IMG/VR virus record: IMGVR_UViG_3300032242_002537
Location: 1-29,226 of that record
Reading direction: 5' to 3' (one strand)
Length of the DNA: 29,226 nt
Source of the DNA: a virus
This document shows, piece by piece, positions 5,524 through 22,671 of the stretch (its first letter is position 1; every line of letters begins with the position of its first letter). The position numbers were made by a program, and so were the translations under genes. The notes beneath the pieces are model-generated. The model was not told the DNA's origin and did not search any database. It saw only the letters and a program-made list of their open reading frames with translations.

Positions 5524-8500
5524 ATGCAAGCACTACCGCTTCCATCATTATTAAATGAATCAATTTATTTTGATTATGCACCACCTCCAACATTTGCGGG
5601 TCATATAAATAAACATCCATTTAAAGTTATTATAACATCATCAACCGATGATAAACATGTTATAAATTTAACTTCTAAATATTCAAAATCATATAATCCA
5701 CAAACTAATATTTCAAAATGGTCTTTTCTTAGAACAGAAAATCGATTTTTAGATTTAAGTGGAAATCAAATAGAATCAGTTGTTACAAATGATACTCCCA
5801 TATACATAGGATCTGATAATAATTTAAATAATGTAAGTGGTAATTTTATAGGTGTAAGTGGTTATGCGGAATTTTATTTTGTGGATGATATCTACAATTA
5901 TGATTTTGCATTTAAAGATGAAAAATATACAACAATAGTTGCAGTACTACAAACAAGCGGTGTTAATTATTTTAATAATGCTTCGCAGCATATTCAATCA
6001 TCTAGATATAGTAATAGCAAAGCAATTGCGTATCAACCTCATATTTTCCATTATAGAGATCCTGATTATATAAAAATATCAGAAAATGGAATAAGAGAAT
6101 TTATCAATCCTCGTTGGGCAGCAGCTGATCAACATGTAATTTTTACTTTTAATTGGAATGAACAATACAGTCAATTATATTATGATGGTAACGAAGTAAC
6201 TCCATTTAAATTTAATTCTAATTTTAATAAATCCTTACCATCAAATACAAATCAAGATACTATTGGTATAAAAGCACAATTAATATTAGATCCTAATTTA
6301 TATGAAAATAAAGAAAATACAATTAAAGCTTATTTTCCAAAAGATAAAATAGATATAACATATAAAAACAATGATCAATATTTGTCACCCGGCTATTGTA
6401 AAACTCTTTTTAATGTTAATAATAGATCAACCGCTAATGTTGTATTAACTGCATCTTCGGAATTTTATTCTCCCGATACTAAAGGTAACATGTATACGCC
6501 TAAAATGTGGCTTTCTAATCCACATGCTGGTGTAGTAGGTATAGTTGAATATAATTTCCCTTTAAATTATAATTTAGAAAATAAATCTTTATTAAAAGCT
6601 CAAATTTATAATTTTAACGTACCTATTGTATATAAACCAAATTTTGCAAATGATAGTTTTGCTACTACAGGATTTCATGGTATAAACAGCATAGCAGTAT
6701 TACCTGCTCCTGATTATTCAGCTTGGATGATTGATGGTGAATTAAATTATCTTTATAAATTTGGATCAAAAGGTCAATTACTATCAGCTATAGATTTAGT
6801 AAAATTAGTATCAGATAATAATCTTGGATTTTTAGTATATGATCAAGTATCACCTACATCTTTGGTTCTTGATGGACAGAAAAATCTTTGGATTACTTTA
6901 TATGATAGTAATTTTGTTTTAAACTTAGATAAGGATGGAAATTATATCGGAGCTTTGAGTTTATTAAATAACGTACCTGAAATATCTTATAATGATCCAC
7001 CTGATATAAACCAAGATTGGTATGAAAAAAATCAAACATATCCAAATGAAGAAAATATAGAAAATTTCGTAGAACCCACAATATTGGATACCGATAGTCA
7101 AAATAATATATGGGTTACATATTCAAATTATGCTAGTGGTTATCTTTTAAAGTTTGATTATAATAATAATATATTACAAACAATAAGCTATCCTGTATGT
7201 GCATGTCCTCAAGATATAATAGTTGATAATCAAGATAATATATGGGTAGCATTATCAAATGATATATGGAGATCGATAGGTTGGATAGAAAAAAGAGATA
7301 CAAGTGGTAATCTTTTAAGCTCTTTCAATAATATTATGGGAGTTAATGAACTCACATTGGATTTAAATCAAAACTTATGGTTTACATATAGTTACGGTAG
7401 AATTGGTTATATTGATAATATAACAGGTGAAGTTTTAACATTTAATGTTTTAGATAATAGCGATAACTCAAAATACGCACAAAGTCCAAATGTTACAACC
7501 CCAAATATTAATACGGATGAAACTGCATTAGAAGGTATAACATGCGATTTAAAAGGTTATTTATATGTTGTAAACTCTGTAGAAAATCAAATTTACATTT
7601 ATAACACAAATACAAAACAATATGTGGATAAAATTTATGTAAACCCACAAGGATTTACTTTTTTCACAAGAACTGAAAATGGGGAAACTGAAATAGAATA
7701 CAATCAATGGGAAAAATCATTACAAGCTCATGGTGATTGGATGGGTACAAGATGGATTAATAAATATTATAAAAAAGATTCAACTTATAAAATAAATCTT
7801 TCCGGTATTTCATGTTCTCTTGAATTTATAGCTTTAACTTCCAAAAATTTTGCACCTCAACATTCATTATTAGCCAATACTTTTTATAAATACATTGAAA
7901 CTAATTTCTTTTCAAAAATTATAGTAACACCTAAAAGCACATCAGAGCCTATAATCATAAGCGATAAACTTGATATTTTTAAAGTTAATGAACATTATGA
8001 TTTGGCGGCTCAGATGAAATCATATGCTATAACACCTACTTTATTTGAAAGTACTTTCTTATTTGATAAGTTTTTACCATCAATATATGGATTTTATCCA
8101 TATGACCATCAAGATTTTGGAGTTTCTGGATATGAAAAAATAGCAAATTTTGTTTTAAATCATTCTGACATAGATACATGTGAAATTGACAAATTATATA
8201 GCATGTCGGATGCTACTAACACAGAAACAAGTGATTATCTTTTAAATTATCCATCTGAAATAAAAAGATTAATGGATATTGTATCAATCAATCAATCAAA
8301 ACTTTGGGGATCTGTTCAAAAAAATCAAAATTATTTTAAACAACCCGGTCCTGATGGATCTTTTAATAAAGGTAAATTATTAACAACTTCCTATACAGTT
8401 ACAGCTGGAAATCCTATCATATTAAAAACAAAATCATTAGAAAAATATGAATTAATTCAAACTGGTAAAATAATAAACTTGGAAAAATATCCATTATCAG

Positions 8501-8727
8501 TTTTGGCTGATAGTAAAAAATTAGGTAGTGATTGGTCTGCTTATTATGAATTTTATGAATTTATACCAACCGATAATAACAATTATTCAAATAATGTTAT
8601 AGATTGGAATAATCCTCAAACAACAATTACAGAAAAATTGACAAGTGCATTTGATTGGATTGGTGATGAAAAAATGATAGATAAGATGTTTTCATATGAA
8701 TTTTATACTGGTTTAGGTATTTTTTAA
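5524..8727 (+). CDS. Large baseplate/tail protein with a six-bladed NHL/Vgb-like beta-propeller
   Basis: This 1067-residue protein directly follows gp6, the position T4 uses for gp7 (1032 residues), so it may be the positional equivalent; sequence similarity to gp7 is not claimed. Residues about 385-710 carry six repeats of a propeller blade with a (D/N)xxxNLWIT or NNIWVT strand and a following ...GY/KFD..G strand. Examples are QKNLWITLYDSNF, QNNIWVTYSNYAS, QDNIWVALSNDIW, QNLWFTYSYGRIG and GYLYVVNSVENQI. This is like NHL or streptogramin-lyase (Vgb) propellers. The N-terminal third is beta-rich and starts PLPSLLNESIYFDY. The C-terminal region (LPSIYGFYPYDHQDFG ... IDWNNPQTTITEKL) looks like a conserved anchoring domain. 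It has no signal peptide or membrane segment. The propeller may bind a partner or a host glycan. Confidence 0.75.
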   Translation: MQALPLPSLLNESIYFDYAPPPTFAGHINKHPFKVIITSSTDDKHVINLTSKYSKSYNPQTNISKWSFLRTENRFLDLSGNQIESVVTNDTPIYIGSDNNLNNVSGNFIGVSGYAEFYFVDDIYNYDFAFKDEKYTTIVAVLQTSGVNYFNNASQHIQSSRYSNSKAIAYQPHIFHYRDPDYIKISENGIREFINPRWAAADQHVIFTFNWNEQYSQLYYDGNEVTPFKFNSNFNKSLPSNTNQDTIGIKAQLILDPNLYENKENTIKAYFPKDKIDITYKNNDQYLSPGYCKTLFNVNNRSTANVVLTASSEFYSPDTKGNMYTPKMWLSNPHAGVVGIVEYNFPLNYNLENKSLLKAQIYNFNVPIVYKPNFANDSFATTGFHGINSIAVLPAPDYSAWMIDGELNYLYKFGSKGQLLSAIDLVKLVSDNNLGFLVYDQVSPTSLVLDGQKNLWITLYDSNFVLNLDKDGNYIGALSLLNNVPEISYNDPPDINQDWYEKNQTYPNEENIENFVEPTILDTDSQNNIWVTYSNYASGYLLKFDYNNNILQTISYPVCACPQDIIVDNQDNIWVALSNDIWRSIGWIEKRDTSGNLLSSFNNIMGVNELTLDLNQNLWFTYSYGRIGYIDNITGEVLTFNVLDNSDNSKYAQSPNVTTPNINTDETALEGITCDLKGYLYVVNSVENQIYIYNTNTKQYVDKIYVNPQGFTFFTRTENGETEIEYNQWEKSLQAHGDWMGTRWINKYYKKDSTYKINLSGISCSLEFIALTSKNFAPQHSLLANTFYKYIETNFFSKIIVTPKSTSEPIIISDKLDIFKVNEHYDLAAQMKSYAITPTLFESTFLFDKFLPSIYGFYPYDHQDFGVSGYEKIANFVLNHSDIDTCEIDKLYSMSDATNTETSDYLLNYPSEIKRLMDIVSINQSKLWGSVQKNQNYFKQPGPDGSFNKGKLLTTSYTVTAGNPIILKTKSLEKYELIQTGKIINLEKYPLSVLADSKKLGSDWSAYYEFYEFIPTDNNNYSNNVIDWNNPQTTITEKLTSAFDWIGDEKMIDKMFSYEFYTGLGIF

Positions 8728-8766: not shown

Positions 8767-11700
8767 ATGTCACAAGCAACGCCAGTATTCGATATAGCCA
8801 TAAATGGTAGTTATCCAAATGAATCTCATACGATAACCCCTAGAACTGATTCACCGTTTATAGCCAGCAATCCTTTTCCGGATGTAATCAACAATTGGAG
8901 CGGATTTTGGCCTGATTTTGGTTGGATATCAATGGGAAATTACATAAATTATGTTAGAAATCCATTAAATCAAGTAATAGATTATTACGATGCTAATACG
9001 GCATATTCTAGTTTTTTTGCATATGAAAATACTGATTATGATCCAATGTCACATCTTTTCAATGATAGTATTGTAGTAAATCCAAATGCTAAAATTATAT
9101 ACATACAAAGACCCACAGCAGTTCAATTTAAATATAATTCTATATTACATTTTAATATATCTACAATAAGACAAACTTTTAAAACACCTTATGAATTTAA
9201 TTTATTTTATATAAATTTAAATGGTGTTAATTCTCAACCATCTTATGGATATTTATTATATCCAAATAGAATATTTTTAAACCCCAAAACAGTATTATAT
9301 AATAGCAATACAAAAAAATGGACATTGACTACAAATGTAAAAATTATTACAAGTTCAACGGTTAATATATTTGAATCTTCAAACATAGAACAAGATGCTT
9401 TTATTGCTCATAGAAATTATATTAATAATATTCCTAATTTAGTCGATATACCAATTGATTTAAATTCTAATTATTTAAATTTTGAAATATATTCAACTAG
9501 AACAAAGACAAATTATCCAATAGTTAATTTCACAACAGGTAATGAGGGTTCAACCAATTCTACATTAGAAAACGATATTGCATATATAAATCCCGATACT
9601 ACATTTATATCTTTCAGTTCGTCTTTTGTTGAAATAACTTCTAATCAAATATATTCATTAACTCAAAATAAAATTAATAGTGAATATTTAAACATTTCAC
9701 AATATTTCAGTCCATCTTATGTTGTAAAATATAATCCTACTGTTAATAATGTTCAAACTTTTCAATTAGTGCAACAAGCATTAAATCCCAGTACTACTAA
9801 TTTTAATTCCATTCCTTATGTACCATTATCAGATGCAAGTAATTGTATATTAAGTGCTAGTATTAATTTGAAAAATAGTGTTTTTAATTTTTATAATAAT
9901 TACACTGCTGCATCTTTAAAATTTCCAATTGGTTCTTATTTAGGTTTAAATTATATCGCACATTGCAATAAAATGCAAACCACTTCACAAGATACATCAG
10001 CTACTCTTACTGGTTTTACAATAAATGGAAACAGTCCAACAAATTATTATGATCCTCAAACGGTCAGTTATGTTAATAATTCGGATATAGTATGGGAAAC
10101 AACATCACCACCGCATTGTTATTCTTATGTAATTAAATTAAAAGATACAAGTAATACGAATTATCTAGATAGTAATTATCTTACTTTTTATGTTAAATCT
10201 TCTGTCGTAAATTCAAATACAAACACAGTAACATTATCAACATTTATAACTTCTGATTTTAATGCATTAAGTTATGGGTTTTCTTATGATAATACTGTTA
10301 ATAATCCTACTGATTATTTAACTTATAAAATAATAAGCACATCTTTACCATCAATTGATGAATTTTTAGATCCAAACAATATTAATTGTACATATGGTCC
10401 AAATAATGCATCTTATGATTTAAAAAATTCACAATCAGTACCAGCGTATTTGGGTAAAGATCTTACAATAAATTATATTGGTACTAGTTATCAGGGTGTT
10501 TCTTTTACAATACAAGCATCATTAAATACAACATCGGGTCAAATAGATACATTTCAACCAACTTATGTTAAATTTGGAGTACCTGATGCTTTAACTGGTA
10601 ATCCTTTATCCATTAATATATTAAACGAACAGTCAAATTCAATAACAATTGATTCTTCATTTAATAATAATACTTCATCTTGGCCTTTCAGAAATTTACT
10701 TGATAGTCATATATCTTGGTTTTTTGAACCAAATAATACACCAGATGTGACAATAACAGCTATTGATGCAGATGGAAAATATATTCAAAATATAACTCCT
10801 TATGAATCTGTATATTTTACCGATACAAGTTGGAGGATTAAAGTAGAGGGTTATGGTCCAGAAACTCTTACTATAAAATTATCTTCAGAAAAATATAATG
10901 AAGTTGCTTTTGTAAAAACAAATCCAAATTTATATGATTTAGCAGGTGCATCTTTAAAGGTTATTCCTACATATTTTAATAATGCAGATTTAACAAGAAC
11001 AATACAATTACAAGGAAAAGTATTATACAGTAATAAAATATATAATATACCCAAAAATATACCAATATATTGGACTTGGGAATATGATACTGATACAAAT
11101 CCCAATACTCAACCTATATCTGTTACTCAAATTTTAAATTCTAATCGTGAGTATTCATACAAATCAAATGTTAAAGCATCTTTATTAAGTGCAATACAAC
11201 TTAATGTAACACCGGGATATTCAAAAATTAAACCAACAGTTCATAATGTTAAAGCTATAATCAGTACAGATATCACTACACCAACTATTAGTGGGTATTA
11301 TCAATTTGATGTTGATGATTTTCCAGATTCAAGCATTTTTAATGCTGATTTTACAACTTACTATAGAAATTTTATAGATATTTCAGATTTTCAAATTGCA
11401 AATACACGAAAAAAATTAAATACAATTACAAGACCTACTGAATCTGATTTAGATTTAACTCTTATTGCAAACAATGACGTATTACCTTTAATTAAAAATA
11501 AAACCACTAATTGGAGTTTAAATGATTCTATTATTGCTAATTCAGTTAATACATATGATTTAGATTTAAATGATTATTCTTTATCAGAATTTGTATCATA
11601 TGGAATTCCTATATCTTCTGCTAAAATTACTTTAACTGTAAATGGCATTGCTCCAAATTGGACAAGTGCACATAATGTAAGTTCAATTACTAATTTTTAT

Positions 11701-12609
11701 ATACTAAGTTCAATTGATTTTTACAAACCATTACAGTTTATAATTTATCCTGAATATGCATGGATTGGTTCTGATAAAACACATGCAACTTTATTAAGCA
11801 CAGATCCATCATTACCTTCATATTTTACTAATTCCTATAGACCTTCAGCTTATGGTAATAAAATTTCTAACAGTCAAACTTTTTGGGTATCAGCTAACAA
11901 AATATGTTTTAGTGAATATCTTTATCAAAATTTACAAAATTATATAATATCCGAAACTGTATCAGCTTATGATTTAATAGATATAAAATATAATCCTTAT
12001 GATTTATATTCATCAGTCGGCATACCAATAACATTAAATGCATATAATGATACTTTTTATCCAGAAAATTTACCAATAGATTATAAAATTAAAAAAACAT
12101 TTTCAGATGGGCGTTCTAAATTAATTAATGAAAAATATACAATAAGTTCAAAAACAATTGAGTTTTTACCACCCACAAATAATTTACATGATAATTTCTT
12201 TTTATCACCTGTTATATTACCGTATGATTATATTGTTTTAAATTTTACACCAAATCAAACGCATATAGATCTTGATGTAAATAATAAAATTTCAATAACA
12301 CAAGATTTAAATACTCTCCCTTTAAATTCACCTTCAATTGCTGCTGGAGGAACAGTAACTTATTATTTATCAAGTAATTTTTGGACAGTAAGTGCTCAAG
12401 TTCCAGCGGTTAATGGTACTTATGACTTATTTACTTTACAATTGGGAGATCCCGCTATTCCTTTAAATTCAGGAGAATTGGGATTAGATAATTTTTATCT
12501 TTATGCTAAAACAAATATAATTCAACAAATACCACCGAGTACTTTTGATAAATATACTATAACACAATATCCAAAAGAAAGAAATCTTTGGAAATCTATA
12601 ACAGTATGA
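8767..12609 (+). CDS. Giant tail/baseplate protein of unknown family, 1280 residues
   Basis: This is the largest gene in the window. The product is extremely rich in Asn, Ser, Thr, Tyr and Ile, nearly free of cysteine, and appears almost wholly beta-stranded. Stretches such as TPDVTITAIDADGKYIQNI, IPIYWTWEYDTDTNPNTQP and ITLNAYNDTFYPENLPIDY look like successive Ig-like or PKD-like sandwich domains, although no strict repeat is evident. The N-terminal region (NWSGFWPDFGWISMGNYIN) is aromatic-rich and may dock to the baseplate. No enzyme motif is seen. Its stop overlaps the next ATG (ATGA), so the two are likely translated together and their products probably assemble together. It could be a long tail-fibre shaft or a baseplate-outer component. 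The family is not recognised. Confidence 0.7.
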   Translation: MSQATPVFDIAINGSYPNESHTITPRTDSPFIASNPFPDVINNWSGFWPDFGWISMGNYINYVRNPLNQVIDYYDANTAYSSFFAYENTDYDPMSHLFNDSIVVNPNAKIIYIQRPTAVQFKYNSILHFNISTIRQTFKTPYEFNLFYINLNGVNSQPSYGYLLYPNRIFLNPKTVLYNSNTKKWTLTTNVKIITSSTVNIFESSNIEQDAFIAHRNYINNIPNLVDIPIDLNSNYLNFEIYSTRTKTNYPIVNFTTGNEGSTNSTLENDIAYINPDTTFISFSSSFVEITSNQIYSLTQNKINSEYLNISQYFSPSYVVKYNPTVNNVQTFQLVQQALNPSTTNFNSIPYVPLSDASNCILSASINLKNSVFNFYNNYTAASLKFPIGSYLGLNYIAHCNKMQTTSQDTSATLTGFTINGNSPTNYYDPQTVSYVNNSDIVWETTSPPHCYSYVIKLKDTSNTNYLDSNYLTFYVKSSVVNSNTNTVTLSTFITSDFNALSYGFSYDNTVNNPTDYLTYKIISTSLPSIDEFLDPNNINCTYGPNNASYDLKNSQSVPAYLGKDLTINYIGTSYQGVSFTIQASLNTTSGQIDTFQPTYVKFGVPDALTGNPLSINILNEQSNSITIDSSFNNNTSSWPFRNLLDSHISWFFEPNNTPDVTITAIDADGKYIQNITPYESVYFTDTSWRIKVEGYGPETLTIKLSSEKYNEVAFVKTNPNLYDLAGASLKVIPTYFNNADLTRTIQLQGKVLYSNKIYNIPKNIPIYWTWEYDTDTNPNTQPISVTQILNSNREYSYKSNVKASLLSAIQLNVTPGYSKIKPTVHNVKAIISTDITTPTISGYYQFDVDDFPDSSIFNADFTTYYRNFIDISDFQIANTRKKLNTITRPTESDLDLTLIANNDVLPLIKNKTTNWSLNDSIIANSVNTYDLDLNDYSLSEFVSYGIPISSAKITLTVNGIAPNWTSAHNVSSITNFYILSSIDFYKPLQFIIYPEYAWIGSDKTHATLLSTDPSLPSYFTNSYRPSAYGNKISNSQTFWVSANKICFSEYLYQNLQNYIISETVSAYDLIDIKYNPYDLYSSVGIPITLNAYNDTFYPENLPIDYKIKKTFSDGRSKLINEKYTISSKTIEFLPPTNNLHDNFFLSPVILPYDYIVLNFTPNQTHIDLDVNNKISITQDLNTLPLNSPSIAAGGTVTYYLSSNFWTVSAQVPAVNGTYDLFTLQLGDPAIPLNSGELGLDNFYLYAKTNIIQQIPPSTFDKYTITQYPKERNLWKSITV

Positions 12610-14721: not shown

Positions 14722-17334
14722 ATGAGTAATAGATTCCATTCAAAATTTCACAGACAAAACCATCACACCTACATAAGTCCCACAAACCCGGATGCAGGTC
14801 ATGATCCTATAGCTAGTCCCGAACAACCTTTTTATGGTGATTTTGTTTTAAAAGGTGCTTTAAGTTGCGTAGCTTCACCTAGTGCCGTTGCTGGTTATTT
14901 TTATTCCGATAACACAGCTTTATGCGCAATAGCAGGTCAAACGGGACAATACATTTATAGTTATGGTGATATAGGTCTTGAAGTTTATAGTTCACAATCA
15001 ACTGCAATTACGGCTTATGGGCCATATTACGGTGCTAATATAAGATCAAATGTTTTTGGTATAAATGTATATGGCGGTCAATATGGAGTTAATACATCTT
15101 CACTAGTTTATGGCATAAGCTCATATGGAGGAAATATAGCTGGTGCTTTCTATAGTCCAATATACGGTATAAATTCTTATGGTGGACAAACAGCTGGTAA
15201 TTTTTACAGTCCACAGGTCTCATTGTCTGCTTTCGGTGGATTATATGGAGCAGATATATATTCACCTAATTATGGTATAAATTCTTACGGTGGTAACGCA
15301 GCTGGTAAATTCTATAGTCCACAGGTCTCATTATCATCTTATGGTGGACAAACAGCTGGTAATTTTTACAGTCCACAGGTCTCATTATCATCTTATGGTG
15401 GAGTTATTGGTCTTAATGTATATTCACCTTTAACAGCTATTAATTCTTATGGTGGACAAGTTGCTGCATTATTAAAAAGTCCAGTTGTTTCACTTTCAAC
15501 TGGAGGTGGAGGTGTCAATAGATTTGATAGTAGAGTTGGTATATTTAGAACACCACTATCTAGTTATCCAACATCACCAAATATTGTATTAGATGTTAAT
15601 GGTAATTCTTATTTTGATGGTAGTCTTACAATTACAGGTGATTTATCTACATTCGGTAATTTATCATATCTTGATACTATTGTATATACTACAAGTTCAT
15701 TAAGAGTTGTTAACCACACAGCATCTGCTGGTGGTACATTTATACAATATGGTACAGATTACCCAACACTAGTTTGTTATGATGGAGATGATATAACAAC
15801 TTCATCATTCACAGTTTTAAATAAAAAAGTTGGTATTAATGTAGATTCACCAACAAATACATTTACAGTTAATAGTCCTATAACAATTAATGATCTTTCA
15901 GTTGGTGCACAATACGCTATTGCTCTTAATAATAATGGTGGCACTAATGGCGATCTTGCATTTGGTAGCGATAGTACAAATTCATATATACAATCCTTTA
16001 ACAGTAAACCATTACAATTAAACAACATTGGAACAAATAATGTAATAATAGGTAAAAATGGAGCTAAAGTTGGTATTGGTACAAATACACCCAATTCGAC
16101 TTTAACTGTTAGTGGTGATATCAGTGCAAGTAGCAATTTATTATCTCAACGTGAAACATTAGATAATACTTCAAATTTATTTATTGGTAATGATGCAATT
16201 TTAACAATTAATGGAAAAGCAAATCAATCCGCATATTTAAGTCTTAAAAACACATATGCTGGTGTTTCTGCGTCTAGCGACATTTCAATTTATAACGATG
16301 GATCAAATTATATGGACTTGGGTATTGCAAGTTCTACATATAATGGAAATTTATATAGTCCTAAATTTAATATTGTAAAAGCTAACGATTCTTATATCTA
16401 TAATACAACTTCAAATCTTGTAATTGGTACAGGAGCTACAGGTGATTTAGTATTTTTCAGTGGTGGTACATTAAGCGGAACTAATGCACAGAATGGTAAC
16501 GAGAAAATGAGAATGACATCGGGTGGTAATATAGGTATTGGTACATCTACACCTAACGTAGCTCTTACAATTATAGGCGATATCAGTGCAAGCAATAATA
16601 TATCAACACAGGTATTATCAGCTTATGAATTAAAATTACAGCATCCAACACCCAATGATGGTAATAATCCAAAATTCTTTATTGGTGAAATTGGAGATGG
16701 TGTAACAGCAGGAACAATATTGGGATCTGCATCAGGATTTAATATAGGATATGATGAAGTTCAAAATAAATTCAATATATCAACTATATTTGGATCTGTA
16801 AATCCTTTAACAGGATTAGTTATCGATCAAAATGCTAATGTAGGTATTGGTACAACTACTCCTAATGTACCTCTTACTGTATCCGGACAAATAAGTGCAG
16901 CTGGATCAATAACCGCATTAAGTGGTGTCTATACTATTGGTAACCCCGTTGGCGTTATTCCTGTAACAATAAAAACAACAGGTTTTAATTTCTTAGGTGC
17001 TGCTGGTAGTTCTCAAACCTTATATACAGTTCCTCCGAATTATACTTTTGTAGCAAGTACTTGGTCAATACTAATAACACAAGCAGCGGGAACATATTCA
17101 TCTGGAACAATGCCTAATATAACTATTGCCAATAATGCTGGATCAGGACTAGCAGCACCGATGACATTAAGAAGTACAACCTATGCAGCAGGTAATACGG
17201 ATTTAGCATATACTTTTGGAGGTCTTCAAAATTCTTCTACAGATATTGTAAAAGTAAAAGTTTCAGTAATAGGAACACAAACAGGTATTACAACATTAGT
17301 TGGCACTGTTATTGTTCATGGTTATTTGGTATAA
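14722..17334 (+). CDS. Tail fibre with ten 18-residue repeats and VGIGT motifs
   Basis: This 870-residue protein has three visible parts. The N-terminal 80 residues are His-rich at first (FHSKFHRQNHHT) and are probably the attachment end. Residues 82-261 are ten back-to-back 18-residue repeats with consensus GGxxAGxFYSPxxSLSSY, expected to form a beta-solenoid shaft. Residues about 262-730 contain four fibre modules marked VGINVDSPTNTFTV, VGIGTNTPNSTLTV, IGIGTSTPNVALTI and VGIGTTTPNVPLTV, three followed by GDISAS or GQISAA, a motif common in phage fibres. The last ~120 residues (from about VIPVTIKTTGFNFLGAAG) form a beta-rich tip with no S74-type intramolecular chaperone. Role: probable host-recognition fibre. 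It appears to be a single-gene transcription unit with its own leader. Confidence 0.85.
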   Translation: MSNRFHSKFHRQNHHTYISPTNPDAGHDPIASPEQPFYGDFVLKGALSCVASPSAVAGYFYSDNTALCAIAGQTGQYIYSYGDIGLEVYSSQSTAITAYGPYYGANIRSNVFGINVYGGQYGVNTSSLVYGISSYGGNIAGAFYSPIYGINSYGGQTAGNFYSPQVSLSAFGGLYGADIYSPNYGINSYGGNAAGKFYSPQVSLSSYGGQTAGNFYSPQVSLSSYGGVIGLNVYSPLTAINSYGGQVAALLKSPVVSLSTGGGGVNRFDSRVGIFRTPLSSYPTSPNIVLDVNGNSYFDGSLTITGDLSTFGNLSYLDTIVYTTSSLRVVNHTASAGGTFIQYGTDYPTLVCYDGDDITTSSFTVLNKKVGINVDSPTNTFTVNSPITINDLSVGAQYAIALNNNGGTNGDLAFGSDSTNSYIQSFNSKPLQLNNIGTNNVIIGKNGAKVGIGTNTPNSTLTVSGDISASSNLLSQRETLDNTSNLFIGNDAILTINGKANQSAYLSLKNTYAGVSASSDISIYNDGSNYMDLGIASSTYNGNLYSPKFNIVKANDSYIYNTTSNLVIGTGATGDLVFFSGGTLSGTNAQNGNEKMRMTSGGNIGIGTSTPNVALTIIGDISASNNISTQVLSAYELKLQHPTPNDGNNPKFFIGEIGDGVTAGTILGSASGFNIGYDEVQNKFNISTIFGSVNPLTGLVIDQNANVGIGTTTPNVPLTVSGQISAAGSITALSGVYTIGNPVGVIPVTIKTTGFNFLGAAGSSQTLYTVPPNYTFVASTWSILITQAAGTYSSGTMPNITIANNAGSGLAAPMTLRSTTYAAGNTDLAYTFGGLQNSSTDIVKVKVSVIGTQTGITTLVGTVIVHGYLV
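14965..15504 (+). repeat. Ten in-frame 54-bp repeats coding for 18-residue units
   Basis: The ten units are all exactly 18 residues, with no insertions. The best match is GGQTAGNFYSPQVSLSSY. At DNA level a 50-base segment at 15175-15224 recurs identically at 15337-15386, and the units at 15301 and 15355 are nearly identical neighbours. This indicates recent unit duplication or conversion. A further degenerate unit may precede it around residues 54-71. Confidence 0.9.
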
Positions 17335-17373: not shown

Positions 17374-18048
17374 ATGCTACCTTCATCCGTAACAAGTAAG
17401 ATTCTCAATTTAGACGCTTTGAACAGAGATGTCGTTATATCTGATGTTTTTGCACCTTTCACTCTTACATTAGATCCTAGAAATGTTACTTTTTATGAAA
17501 AAGTGAGAAAAATTGAATATATTTGGGGAGATGGTACAATTGATATTGTAAACTATGAACCTAATATATTACTTAATAATAGTTTACCATATCCAAATGA
17601 AATTGGAAACCCTTTAAACTATCCTAAAACTAAACAATTTTATTCTAAAGACTTAAAGTTATCAGTTTATAATGTTATTATAAAATTTTATTGTTTTACA
17701 AATACAGATCCTTATATTTTTACAGTTACTTTAAATTTAAAAAATCCTGATATTGATTATGGAAATAATAATTTTTTTGATGAAATACATTTAGTAAAAA
17801 CAAGAATGTATGGTGCTGATGATAAAATACTTTATGTTTTTCAATCTCAAAATAATGATTATTTTTTAATGTCAAATGTCGATTGGAAATTAAAACCAGT
17901 TGATCCTGTTACCGTCGAATCATTAAGTAGACCTTATAGGATATTTAATCCATTTGAAACAAAATTTATTACTAATAGTGGTATAAGAGCAACACCATAT
18001 TACAAAAATGTACCAATAACTCTTGATAATCCACCCACAATCACATGA
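17374..18048 (+). CDS. PKD-like small tail protein of unknown function
   Basis: This is a 224-residue beta-rich protein. Residues about 25-130 have a PKD-like layout: FAPFTLTLDPRNVTFYEKV, then IEYIWGDGTIDIVNY with the GDG turn typical of PKD domains, then LKLSVYNVIIKFYC and FTVTLNLKNP. The C-terminal half contains YGADDKILYVFQSQNNDYF and ends near a Pro-rich segment. It has no signal peptide or membrane segment. Its stop overlaps the next start as ATGA, showing translational coupling to the Thr/Pro-rich protein and then the protease. The domain call is tentative; the operon context indicates a tail or fibre-associated protein. Confidence 0.6.
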   Translation: MLPSSVTSKILNLDALNRDVVISDVFAPFTLTLDPRNVTFYEKVRKIEYIWGDGTIDIVNYEPNILLNNSLPYPNEIGNPLNYPKTKQFYSKDLKLSVYNVIIKFYCFTNTDPYIFTVTLNLKNPDIDYGNNNFFDEIHLVKTRMYGADDKILYVFQSQNNDYFLMSNVDWKLKPVDPVTVESLSRPYRIFNPFETKFITNSGIRATPYYKNVPITLDNPPTIT

Positions 18049-18920
18049 ACTTCTATAAAGAAACAACTTATAATGGAGAACTCTGGCTAAGAGATACTAA
18101 TGATAATGTGGTATCTGCTAATAGTTATCTATCCGCTATATATGAAAAATATAACACATTTAACGATATATTTCAATTTAGTTTTTATGGTGATTTAGCA
18201 TTAAATATAATTAAAAAATTTGATGTTTTTTATGATTGTTTTTTAATTCAAACAAATAATGGTTTTATTTTTGAAAAATATAAAGTTCAAGATTTATCAA
18301 TTGTACCATTCACTCAAATAAACAATTATTATAGAAATTCTTATTTAGATTATTGGTTTGATGAAACAAAAAAGAAAGTTTATTTTATAACAAAAAACGA
18401 GACAGATTTTAGTTTACCTGAACCTCAAAATAATAAAGCTTATGTTAAACTTGCATTTACTTTTAATGTATTTGATATAAAAACTGGAAAAATTTCTATT
18501 TTAATGAATGAATTATTAAATTTTAATTTATTTAATCCAATTAATCTTTCAAAATCAAATGGAATATTTGAAGATCCTAAATTAACATATAATCCTGATA
18601 CTAATAATTTTAATATATCAGTTATCATAAGAAATGATGTTAATGAAATGGGGTTATTGAGTATTAATCTTAATGAATTTGAAATAAAAGAAGTTAATTC
18701 ATTTATACCCTTTGGAACATTAGCATTACCAGAAGAAATTATTGCTCCAACTGCAACACCAACTCCAACACCCACTGTTACTCAATTTTTAACACCAACA
18801 CCTACTCCGACACCTACAATAACAAATTCTAGTACTCCAATACCCTCACAAACACCTACCCCTACAAGTACACCACCAGCAACCCAAGCTGTTAGGACGT
18901 TATATATAAGTTTTGAATAA
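18045..18920 (+). CDS. Tail-associated protein with a Thr/Pro-rich C-terminal stalk
   Basis: This 291-residue product is coupled to the upstream gene by an ATGA overlap. Residues 1 to about 230 are an unrecognised, mainly beta domain with Tyr/Phe/Asn-rich strands (FYGDLALNIIKKFDVFYDCF, KVYFITKNETDF). Residues about 233-282 are a Thr/Pro stalk (TPTPTPTVTQ, TPTPTPTPTITNSSTPIP, QTPTPTSTPP) and the protein ends VRTLYISFE. Such stalks act as extended linkers and are candidate O-glycosylation or protease-accessible sites. A related Thr/Pro tract occurs in the fibre starting at 26021. The next gene, a serine protease, begins one base after this stop. Confidence 0.65.
   Translation: MNFYKETTYNGELWLRDTNDNVVSANSYLSAIYEKYNTFNDIFQFSFYGDLALNIIKKFDVFYDCFLIQTNNGFIFEKYKVQDLSIVPFTQINNYYRNSYLDYWFDETKKKVYFITKNETDFSLPEPQNNKAYVKLAFTFNVFDIKTGKISILMNELLNFNLFNPINLSKSNGIFEDPKLTYNPDTNNFNISVIIRNDVNEMGLLSINLNEFEIKEVNSFIPFGTLALPEEIIAPTATPTPTPTVTQFLTPTPTPTPTITNSSTPIPSQTPTPTSTPPATQAVRTLYISFE
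18744..18890 (+). repeat. Thr/Pro low-complexity repeat tract
   Basis: Degenerate ACA/CCA/CCT/ACT codon repeats encode about 49 residues, mostly TP dipeptides. Short identical blocks (for example CTCCGACACC and CCTACAATAAC) recur in the tract at 29037-29226, pointing to a shared origin. Confidence 0.75.
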
Positions 18921-18921
18921 T

Positions 18922-20235
18922 ATGAATGATTTACAAGAAAATATAAGACAAACTCTTTTGAATGCACCTAGTGGCGTACACTCTATATTTTATGGTGTTA
19001 AGAAAAAAAATGGTATAAAGACTGATGAATTCTCGTTAATTCATTTTGTAGAAAAAAAACTTCCACTATCTGCATTACCAGTAGATCAAATTATTCCAAA
19101 TAACATAATACTTGATGATGTAAAGTATAAAACGGATGTTGTACAAGTTGCAAAATTCCAAACAAATCAATGTTATAATTTAAATGATCCAGCTATTACT
19201 TATTTAAACACCAAGCATAGACCTCTATCAGGAGGTCTTGTAATAAGCGATCTTGCACGTTGGACAGAAATTTCTGCTAATCATTTTCATAATTATATTG
19301 GAACTTTAGGATTTATTGCAGTTGATAAGGTGGATAATACATTAGTTGGTGTTACAAATAATCACGTTGCTATAAAAGATGCATTCAATACATCAGAAAG
19401 AAATACATCTGGTGAAATTTTTAATATATATAGTCCTTTAGTTTTTCAATCTTCTTTTCCAAATGGATTTAATGCTACATTAAATCAATCAATTCTACAA
19501 TATAATAAAGGTGGTTCTTTTGATTTTATAGTTGATTCAATAGGAAGACCAAAAAGATACGCCGCTCTTAGTATAACAAATACAAATTATGTAGATGCAG
19601 CTTTAATAACAATAAATCAAGGAACAGTTAATTCTTCATCTACATCACAAGCCGAATTAGCAAATACACATGCAATGCCTTTTGCTACAACTAATGAAAT
19701 TAATACAGTATTAAATTCTGTAATTGGATCAATTCCCATATATAGTGTAGGTAGAACTACTGGTCCTAAAGGTATAAATTGTCCATTAGAAATAACAGGA
19801 GTGGGATCTATATCTATTACATATAATAAACAAGGAAGCAATCAAGTTGTTATTTTATCGGATGTTATATCTTATAGTTTTATAGATAATTCAAATTTAC
19901 CAATTTATCATGGTGATTCAGGTTCCGCTGTTATTGGTAATTTTAATGGTACTAATAAAATATTAGGCTTGGCTTTTGCAGGTGATACAAATGCTGAAAC
20001 TGATCCAATTCCTACTAGTACACATGGTGTTTTATGTAGAATAGATCATATAGCTAGTATTTTAAATATATCAGCATGGGACGGTAGTAGTAAAGCTTAT
20101 ACATCTCCTTCTCAAGATAGCATATCAACTATAGTGAGACCTGCAAATGATACCAGACAGAGTATTACATACAATGGTAAAACTTATTACCAAGCAGGTT
20201 TAATAAAAACCAGAGAGTCAACTACAAATATCTAA
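18922..20235 (+). CDS. Trypsin-fold serine protease in the tail gene cluster
   Basis: The start is taken at ATG 18922; a TTG-initiated frame from 18913 is less likely. The 437-residue protein has all elements of a chymotrypsin-like protease: His148 in GVTNNHVA, Asp225 in NYVDAALITI, and Ser333 in HGDSGSAVIG. The conserved SVGRTTGPKG strand pair (275-284) precedes the serine and GLAFAG (349-354) follows it. The N-terminal domain (VEKKLP...IPNNIILDDVKYKTDVVQV) matches the lead-in of bacterial trypsin-like proteases of the type related to plant Nal1. No secretion signal is present, so the enzyme is probably cytoplasmic in the infected cell or carried on the virion. It is the third gene of a coupled PKD-like/Thr-Pro/protease set. 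Substrate unknown: fibre maturation, host surface protein cleavage, or host takeover are all possible. Confidence 0.88.
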   Translation: MNDLQENIRQTLLNAPSGVHSIFYGVKKKNGIKTDEFSLIHFVEKKLPLSALPVDQIIPNNIILDDVKYKTDVVQVAKFQTNQCYNLNDPAITYLNTKHRPLSGGLVISDLARWTEISANHFHNYIGTLGFIAVDKVDNTLVGVTNNHVAIKDAFNTSERNTSGEIFNIYSPLVFQSSFPNGFNATLNQSILQYNKGGSFDFIVDSIGRPKRYAALSITNTNYVDAALITINQGTVNSSSTSQAELANTHAMPFATTNEINTVLNSVIGSIPIYSVGRTTGPKGINCPLEITGVGSISITYNKQGSNQVVILSDVISYSFIDNSNLPIYHGDSGSAVIGNFNGTNKILGLAFAGDTNAETDPIPTSTHGVLCRIDHIASILNISAWDGSSKAYTSPSQDSISTIVRPANDTRQSITYNGKTYYQAGLIKTRESTTNI

Positions 20236-20277: not shown

Positions 20278-22671
20278 ATGTCCTATACAAGAATTAGAGA
20301 ATTACCACAGGGTGGAAGAGAAGTCGGTCACTCCGTAGATGTAAATAACGATCAATTAGTATTAGAACAAGATATAACTAGGCAGATAACTCCTCTTAGT
20401 TTTCTTTCTAATAGTATTGCTCAATTAGACAAATATACAAATTCATGGTCTTCTATACCACCTAAAGAGACTGCAACAAATGTTGGTATAGCTTTTTCTG
20501 ATTTTGGTGCAGCTAATACTACTAATTTAACAGTTAAAACATTGATGGATTATATCAATCATAATCTCAATGTGGTCAATCAAGTTTATTATGTAAACAG
20601 TGGTGGTGAAGATACTAATGATTGTGCAGAAAGAGGAAGAAATATACAATTGCCTTTTAAAACAATTAATTACGCAGCTAAAGTAATATCAGATGCAATA
20701 GCTGGCGATTATTACAATCAAAATGATCCAAATTTGGTTCCTGATCCAATAACAACACCACTTAGAAAACAATATACTATCATGGTATCAAGTGGTGATT
20801 ATACTGAATATAATCCTATATACTTGCCACCTAACACTTCACTTATTGGTGACAATTTAAGAAGAACTACGATCAGACCACAAAACCCATATCTTGATTT
20901 ATTTTGGGTTGATAGTGCAAATTATATTTGGGGTTTTACATTCAGAGATCTTAAAGAACCAGCTTCTGCTGTTGCATATCCAATCTCAACAGTTATAGCT
21001 TATCCAGACGGAGGTGGAGCAGAAAAAAAATTAAAGTATGCTGCATCTGATTTTAAAGGTAAAAGAAAATCTTGGGTAAGAGACTCTTATGATAATGCAT
21101 ATAAAGGCACATCAGGTGGAAATGGTATAAATACAATAGTCATACCAAGTAAAAGACCTTATATATATGTAAGTCCTTATATTCAAGGTTGTACATCATA
21201 TAATATTTCGTCAAGAATGCCAAAACCGGGACCAAATAAAAGTGTACTTGACGAAGAGAATAATGTATTATTACCATCAACATGGACATCTGAAGGAGGA
21301 ACTTATGGTGATCTTGCCCCCGATCCTATTACTGGTGCACCCGGCGTACGTCCTCCAGATGATGCTGGTTGTGGTTTAAGAATTGATGGTCAATTAGTAC
21401 AAGGTTACTTCAGAAGTATGGTACTTGATTCATTTACACAAGTTAATCAAGGTGGTAAGGGAGTTTATATATTAAATCATGGATATGCACAACTAGTCAG
21501 TATCTTTACTATTGCTACATCACAAGGTGTAGTTTGCGAAGATGGTGGCACATGCTCAATTAGTACTTCTAATTCAACATTTGGGCTATCAGGTCTTGTT
21601 GCAACAGGTAAATCATATTCTCCAGTTTTACAAGGTAATTTTGTAATACCTAATGAGGGTAAATTTACTTTGCCAAGTACAGATGCTTTCCCTTACGGTT
21701 ATACTACAGGTGGTAACTTATTTACTATAAATAACGTATCACCTCTTCCTGTTAAATATGATGGTGATGATGTTACAGATACAGAAATCCCAATGTATGT
21801 AGCAGCTAATCCTTATGCAACTCTTTGTTTTACAGTAGGTGATGATAAACCTTGGGATACAGGTAATGGAATGTCCGGTCCGGGTTATTTAATGGAAACT
21901 CATATAAGTCCTCTTATAAATAGAAAAGATTCTAATGATCAACCTATATATCAAGTAAAATTATTCTATATAGAACAGGGTGCCCCAGTACCAAGTTTAA
22001 GTGGTGGTAAACCTGATATTAATAAATTTGGTAATAATAATTTAGATTATAAATATTATCATGATCGTAATTTATCAATTCCAAATGCACCGGAAAATCC
22101 AACATCACCTCTTCCTTGGGATATTCAGTTAAGTTATAATTTAGGACTTGATTTGACAAAAGTAATTCCATTTTCTGGTTTTGATGCTAATGATAATAAA
22201 ATAAATTTTAATGATGGTGTTGCTATAACATATTATTCCGATGCTTTGGGAACTATACCTATAACAAATCAAAATGATTATATACGACATTTGATAAATC
22301 AAAATGGAGTAAATTCAAATCTTGATGCAACTATAAATTTTACTAATGCTCCTGTTAAATTCTACGCTAGAAGTGTAATTGAAACTGGTTCCCATACTTT
22401 TGAATATATGGGAACGGGAACCAGAATGAAATATGCTATTCCTGCTTTTGGTGGTGTTACAAATAATTCAAATGAAGCTATATCTGATGGTCAAAATGAT
22501 GCATATGGTAATAAACCGGGTATTGTATTTTTTACAAGTTCCAATGAATTAGGTAATTTTAAAGTTGGAACTGATTTTACAATCGTTCAAAGTACAGGAA
22601 CAATTCAAGGTGAAACATTTAATAGAGCAATTTTAACATTAGTTACCCCATTGACGATTGTTCTAGAGTAA
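20278..22671 (+). CDS. Virion structural protein with pectate-lyase-like beta-helix, of the cyanomyovirus type
   Basis: This is a 797-residue structural protein. The N-terminus begins TRIRELP, common in phage tail proteins. Residues about 103-450 are a right-handed beta-helix: VYYVNSGGEDTNDC with a PFKTINYAAKVISDA helix cap, PPNTSLIGDNLRRTTIRPQ, ANYIWGFTFRDL, and GYAQLVSIFTIATSQGVVCE followed by GGTCSISTSNSTFGLSGLVA. These blocks strongly resemble large structural proteins of cyanophage T4-like viruses. The C-terminus (SHTFEYMGTGTRMKYAIP ... GIVFFTSSNELGNFKVGTDF ... ILTLVTPLTIVLE) is also of that type. No lyase catalytic set is identified. Likely a tail or baseplate appendage. It is well conserved compared with the poorly recognised giant genes upstream. 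Confidence 0.85.
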   Translation: MSYTRIRELPQGGREVGHSVDVNNDQLVLEQDITRQITPLSFLSNSIAQLDKYTNSWSSIPPKETATNVGIAFSDFGAANTTNLTVKTLMDYINHNLNVVNQVYYVNSGGEDTNDCAERGRNIQLPFKTINYAAKVISDAIAGDYYNQNDPNLVPDPITTPLRKQYTIMVSSGDYTEYNPIYLPPNTSLIGDNLRRTTIRPQNPYLDLFWVDSANYIWGFTFRDLKEPASAVAYPISTVIAYPDGGGAEKKLKYAASDFKGKRKSWVRDSYDNAYKGTSGGNGINTIVIPSKRPYIYVSPYIQGCTSYNISSRMPKPGPNKSVLDEENNVLLPSTWTSEGGTYGDLAPDPITGAPGVRPPDDAGCGLRIDGQLVQGYFRSMVLDSFTQVNQGGKGVYILNHGYAQLVSIFTIATSQGVVCEDGGTCSISTSNSTFGLSGLVATGKSYSPVLQGNFVIPNEGKFTLPSTDAFPYGYTTGGNLFTINNVSPLPVKYDGDDVTDTEIPMYVAANPYATLCFTVGDDKPWDTGNGMSGPGYLMETHISPLINRKDSNDQPIYQVKLFYIEQGAPVPSLSGGKPDINKFGNNNLDYKYYHDRNLSIPNAPENPTSPLPWDIQLSYNLGLDLTKVIPFSGFDANDNKINFNDGVAITYYSDALGTIPITNQNDYIRHLINQNGVNSNLDATINFTNAPVKFYARSVIETGSHTFEYMGTGTRMKYAIPAFGGVTNNSNEAISDGQNDAYGNKPGIVFFTSSNELGNFKVGTDFTIVQSTGTIQGETFNRAILTLVTPLTIVLE

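Follow-up and report, generated by a model that had tools for sequence, protein, structure and literature searches.

Why would a gene for a complete trypsin-fold protease lie among the tail-fibre genes of a T4-like phage? The gene in question occupies positions 18922..20235 (+ strand) of a viral contig of 29,226 nucleotides (IMG/VR record IMGVR_UViG_3300032242_002537), the whole of which was analysed and is referred to here as the window. The serine protease familiar from T4-like phages is the prohead protease gp21, which differs from the window enzyme in both fold and locus. The two had already been set apart in a preliminary description made from the sequence alone, and this distinction was upheld, as no match of the window protease to the gp21 family was found in Pfam or PHROGs. 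The T4-like setting proposed there was likewise borne out: gp23 (the major head protein), a clamp loader, gp25 and gp6 are all encoded on the 29-kb window, tail-fibre families were matched in a PHROG search, and the neighbours of the protease are fibre-like. Among the phage records searched, the nearest relatives of the gp6 gene and of the fibre gene directly 3' of the protease (20278..22671, + strand; 797 aa; PHROG tail fibre families, E 1.6e-47) were those of cyanophages.

The protease, its fold and its relatives

The protease reading frame is open through 20235 from either an ATG at 18922, one base beyond the stop of the preceding gene, or an in-frame TTG at 18913, which would add three amino acids; residues were counted from the ATG, giving a protein of 437 aa. 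The catalytic residues named in the preliminary description were confirmed in the translation, at His148 (codon 19363..19365, + strand, in TNNHV), Asp225 (19594..19596, + strand, in NYVDAAL, or VDAALI) and Ser333 (19918..19920, + strand, in HGDSGSAV), and their order, together with the GDSGS motif, is that of the PA clan. Asp and Ser were invariant in all 57 distinct relatives covering both sites, and neither had formed part of the search pattern. The His was present in 56/56 covered relatives, a count that is biased because NNH did form part of that pattern. Invariance of the Asp and Ser over very divergent relatives argues for retained catalysis. It also bears on the alternative that the protein is a structural or receptor-binding fibre cap, in which catalysis would be incidental or serve self-processing only. 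Such a cap would suit the position in a fibre-tip slot described below, tip proteins often being binders, but a pure binder would have no need of catalytic residues conserved over such distances, and we consider this explanation improbable.

On its own, the window protease gave no Pfam, NCBIfam or PDB sequence match, and its comparison with 50,697 phage records returned no match, even at E 1. The sole matching phage family was PHROG 20754, 'protease' (E 1e-12, residues 7-362), a family with no described role; the window protein is one of its divergent members, and a plasmid relative (L004) matched it at full length. An AlphaFold2 model built from 45 relatives (mean pLDDT 82.5, pTM 0.88) had rice NARROW LEAF 1 (NAL1) as its best PDB structural match in Foldseek, with almost all of the chain aligned (E 3e-14; TM-scores as high as 0.59 by query and 0.71 by target), followed by alpha-lytic protease, both matches indicating a double beta-barrel fold. 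The best match among predicted viral structures was an uncharacterised protein of Virus NIOZ-UU157 (E 1.4e-35). The family profile also found NAL1 by sequence (E 1e-4), across the N-terminal domain up to the catalytic His. The Pfam family NAL1_N stayed below its cut-off, with 24.0 against 27 bits for the L038 protein, a sub-threshold match for the plasmid relative and no hit for the window protein alone. As modelled, the protease is a chymotrypsin-fold (PA clan) enzyme and, by fold, NAL1-like, with the Pfam NAL1_N threshold unreached. The earlier claim of a complete trypsin-fold protease among fibre genes thus gained support from the PHROG match, from the fold matches to NAL1 and alpha-lytic protease and from the fibre-like neighbours; Pfam, one of the checks proposed with it, gave no match for the window protein alone.

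NAL1 assembles as a hexamer. Rice NAL1 and maize ZmNAL1a, both plant trypsin-like serine proteases, share with the window protein the fold over almost the whole length and the GDSGS motif; unlike them (about 16% identity), the phage enzyme carries additional sequence at its C-terminus and is encoded in a phage fibre locus. The relationship would set the plant NAL1 family, which is of agricultural interest, inside a larger microbial and viral family. Within plant cells, NAL1 degrades TOPLESS-type corepressors (PMC12915138).

The protease family was opened up through homologs on plasmids and then a motif alignment. Starting from weak plasmid hits, clear relatives were reached on a Clostridiaceae plasmid and in an uncultured phage of 484 kb. 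The same route led to Aeropyrum coil-shaped virus (Spiraviridae), whose putative serine protease shares the GTLG, NxHV, GRT and GDSGS motifs but lies in another genome context, that of an archaeal virus, with no tailed stalk gene just upstream. The search with the motif alignment returned 88 viral contigs. Every one of the 80 that were retained encodes a relative, which gives at least 80 carriers in IMG/VR, and, a few at contig ends aside, nearly all of the proteins are full length. These contigs, the PHROG 20754 match and the invariant Asp and Ser put the assignment beyond chance. Since neither the window protease nor those of L008, L021 and L071, used as queries, found a relative in the phage records, the carriers appear to be uncultured viruses. 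With gp23 encoded on just 7 of 50 carrier contigs, most of which are fragments, the gene seems to occur beyond the T4-like phages as well, and a T4-like context was dropped as a general rule. Related genes were also found on plasmids, in Halomonas and in Methanosarcina acetivorans; a scan of genome contigs with a narrower alignment returned Halomonas only. The protease tree has long branches, and the exact position of the window protein in it is unsure. The related protease gene of Halomonas litopenaei (L092:7560-8696) is without the extra C-terminal region.

The upstream stalk protein and its C-terminal tail

In almost all distinct loci a same-strand gene lies directly upstream of the protease, whose product measures 93 to 2338 aa and is frequently rich in Thr, Ser or Pro, and in 48 of 50 loci the gap between the two genes is -7 to 34 bases. 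In the window this gene (18045..18920, + strand; 291 aa) encodes an N-terminal domain (residues 1-226), a Pro/Thr-rich stalk and a C-terminal tail, and its product terminates in ...AVRTLYISFE*. The tail RTLYISFE (18894..18917, + strand) is a putative docking tag. The pattern T-[IVLM]-[FYW]-x-x-[FWLY], 1-7 residues from the C-terminus, was found in 46 of the 50 upstream proteins and in 1 of 749 other ORFs from the same loci; the Fisher p of about 1e-68 is overstated, because related loci were counted and the pattern had been derived from the very loci being scored. When the proteases were clustered at 70% identity, the tail was present in 23 of 27 clusters, and at 50% in 6 of 9. Its Thr was the sole invariant column in an unguided alignment of 37 upstream proteins, and the tail is borne by at least three groups of upstream proteins with no similarity detected between them, besides the window's own. 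The tail was missing in 4 of the 50 loci, among them L068 with a near match, PLIETVFLYIPNN. First and second codon positions of the tail are fixed and third positions vary, indicating that selection acts on the peptide; an RNA or translation signal was ruled out on the same pattern.

An earlier suggestion, that the protease is associated with the virion or with fibres, is strongly suggested by how the locus is built in about 50 relatives, as well as by fused forms. In L008, L086, L088, L089, L091 and others, the protease stands at the N-terminal end of a longer protein with Ser/Thr stalks; in L008 and related loci it is also fused to additional domains, and the L008 protease is flanked by head/virion structural genes and a tail-fibre gene. 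Two proteases are encoded in L038, the first with a PT stalk and ending in the tail-like GPFTSFVTFESYNC immediately before the second. Across the loci, most proteins neighbouring the protease have no family assignment, and the assigned genes downstream of it mostly encode tail or virion proteins. The tail-collar Pfam family gave no match in downstream genes at its cut-off and is not claimed as a marker for them. In L013 and L016 (8347-10915) tandem protease genes occur, the first without stalk or tail.

The pairing of tail and protease in dozens of uncultured viruses suggests an enzyme mounted on the virus. It might also be read as the mark of an assembly protease, for which the tail would be a substrate or recognition site and which would trim or mature stalk or fibre proteins with no need to be present on the virion. 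A conserved C-terminal peptide with aromatic residues, encoded beside a chymotrypsin-fold enzyme, might just as well mark where that enzyme cuts, and the stalk and protease genes are immediately adjacent. Cleavage there, however, would remove merely the 1-7 residues past the motif, the fusion of the protease to stalks and extra domains in several relatives suits a displayed enzyme better, and two sibling contigs, L094 and L096, make homologous stalk proteins with a fused tip domain and no protease. A role in assembly is therefore judged rather unlikely. As for direct contact between the two partners, the L034 tail and protease, read through the stop codon and modelled as a single chain with AlphaFold2, gave a disordered tail (residues 1-32, pLDDT < 50), a model that neither favours docking nor rules it out.

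The preliminary description had missed that the enzyme belongs to a NAL1-like family, widespread in uncultured viruses, with a conserved C-terminal tail on the gene directly upstream. No description of such a phage protease or tail was found in the literature searched, which covered few subscription journals.

Exchange of tail and protease for fused tip domains

The two sibling contigs have the window's gene order of gp6, stalk gene and tail fibre, and the protease is absent from both, the tail fibre gene (in the place homologous to 20278..22671) directly following the stalk gene. Their stalk proteins align with that of the window over residues 1-226 only, after which comes a PTPT stalk; in L094 this is followed by a fused C-terminal Gly_rich_2 domain (E 3.6e-17) and in L096 by a fused C-terminal domain of no recognised family. 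The counterpart in the window consists of a PTPT stalk, the RTLYISFE tail and a separate protease gene, so that tail and protease substitute for the fused tip domain. By this comparison of gene content, the pair occupies an exchangeable tip slot of the fibre. Within the window's phage group the protease is an exchangeable module, swapped into that slot and not inserted at random. L094:12689-14398 encodes a 569-aa homolog of the product of the window gene at 17374-18048. This homolog has a PT stalk of its own, followed by IDTLYTSF and by a fused domain without a Pfam hit, in which FYELGRNFW recalls a metallopeptidase. The tail motif may link stalks to fused domains too.

Absence of the gene from close, syntenic relatives also raises the prospect of a stray host-derived protease gene that happens to lie among fibre genes and acts inside the cell, for instance against host regulators or defence proteins, and plays no part in the virion. 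Relatives on plasmids, in Halomonas and in Methanosarcina acetivorans would fit such an origin, as would the distant copy of the 484-kb phage, placed among non-structural genes. The phage subfamily nevertheless keeps its place directly after a tailed stalk gene in many divergent loci, most assigned downstream neighbours are tail or virion proteins, and a stray gene is accordingly considered very improbable. The preliminary description had treated sporadic insertion in neighbouring phages as evidence against a virion role and had proposed a survey of related phages. That survey found the family widespread in uncultured viruses after a tailed stalk gene and missing from L094 and L096; the presence of the gene is in this sense sporadic, but by exchange at the fibre tip. 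Of the two activities it had offered, digestion of host surface proteins fits better than stalk trimming, as the protease stands in the slot of the siblings' fused tip domains.

A proposed fibre-tip enzyme

Most enzymes known from phage fibres and spikes degrade polysaccharides. The reading that we prefer, with a probability of about 0.5, is that of a virion-borne NAL1-like protease at the fibre tip, held in trans by the stalk tail and cutting a host surface protein. The upstream stalk protein would be the fibre, anchored by its N-terminal domain and continued by a Pro/Thr stalk into a short, beta-strand-like C-terminal tail, here RTLYISFE. To this tail the protease would bind non-covalently, as the detachable tip of a fibre on the virion surface. 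At adsorption the displayed protease would cut a host surface protein, and a receptor would be exposed or released. Presence on the virion, physical docking and a host-surface substrate are the parts of this proposal that we infer. As one of its components, the product of 18922-20235 would be an active protease. A broader version is advanced a little more tentatively, namely a portable two-part system in which the tail, on unrelated fibre stalks, specifically captures the NAL1-like protease from the next gene, so that proteolytic tips could be swapped in trans.

The proposed docking would resemble that of gp38, the adhesin of T2-type phages, a separate protein at the tip of the gp37 fibre (PMC12892980). 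Like the protease, gp38 is encoded directly after its carrier fibre protein and is interchangeable between phages; unlike it, gp38 is a non-enzymatic, glycine-rich binder, and no sequence relation between the two was found. In place of the polyglycine II sandwich of gp38, the protease has a chymotrypsin fold and is therefore not a member of the gp38 family. If the proposal is true, a widespread and conserved fibre-tip protease points to protein receptors or coats as targets of many uncultured viruses. The tail and its protease also suggest a natural tag-and-capture pair, open to testing and use at the bench.

Two further observations were made. At L045:6980-11902 the upstream protein has no tail, though it is homologous to those of L026, L035 and L042, and the L045 protease is extended by a long additional region at its C-terminus; the trans arrangement may have been lost here. 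Three very large proteins of the window without a PHROG family (5524-8727, 8767-12609 and 14722-17334) are kept in the sibling contigs L093-L096 at about 40-70% identity.
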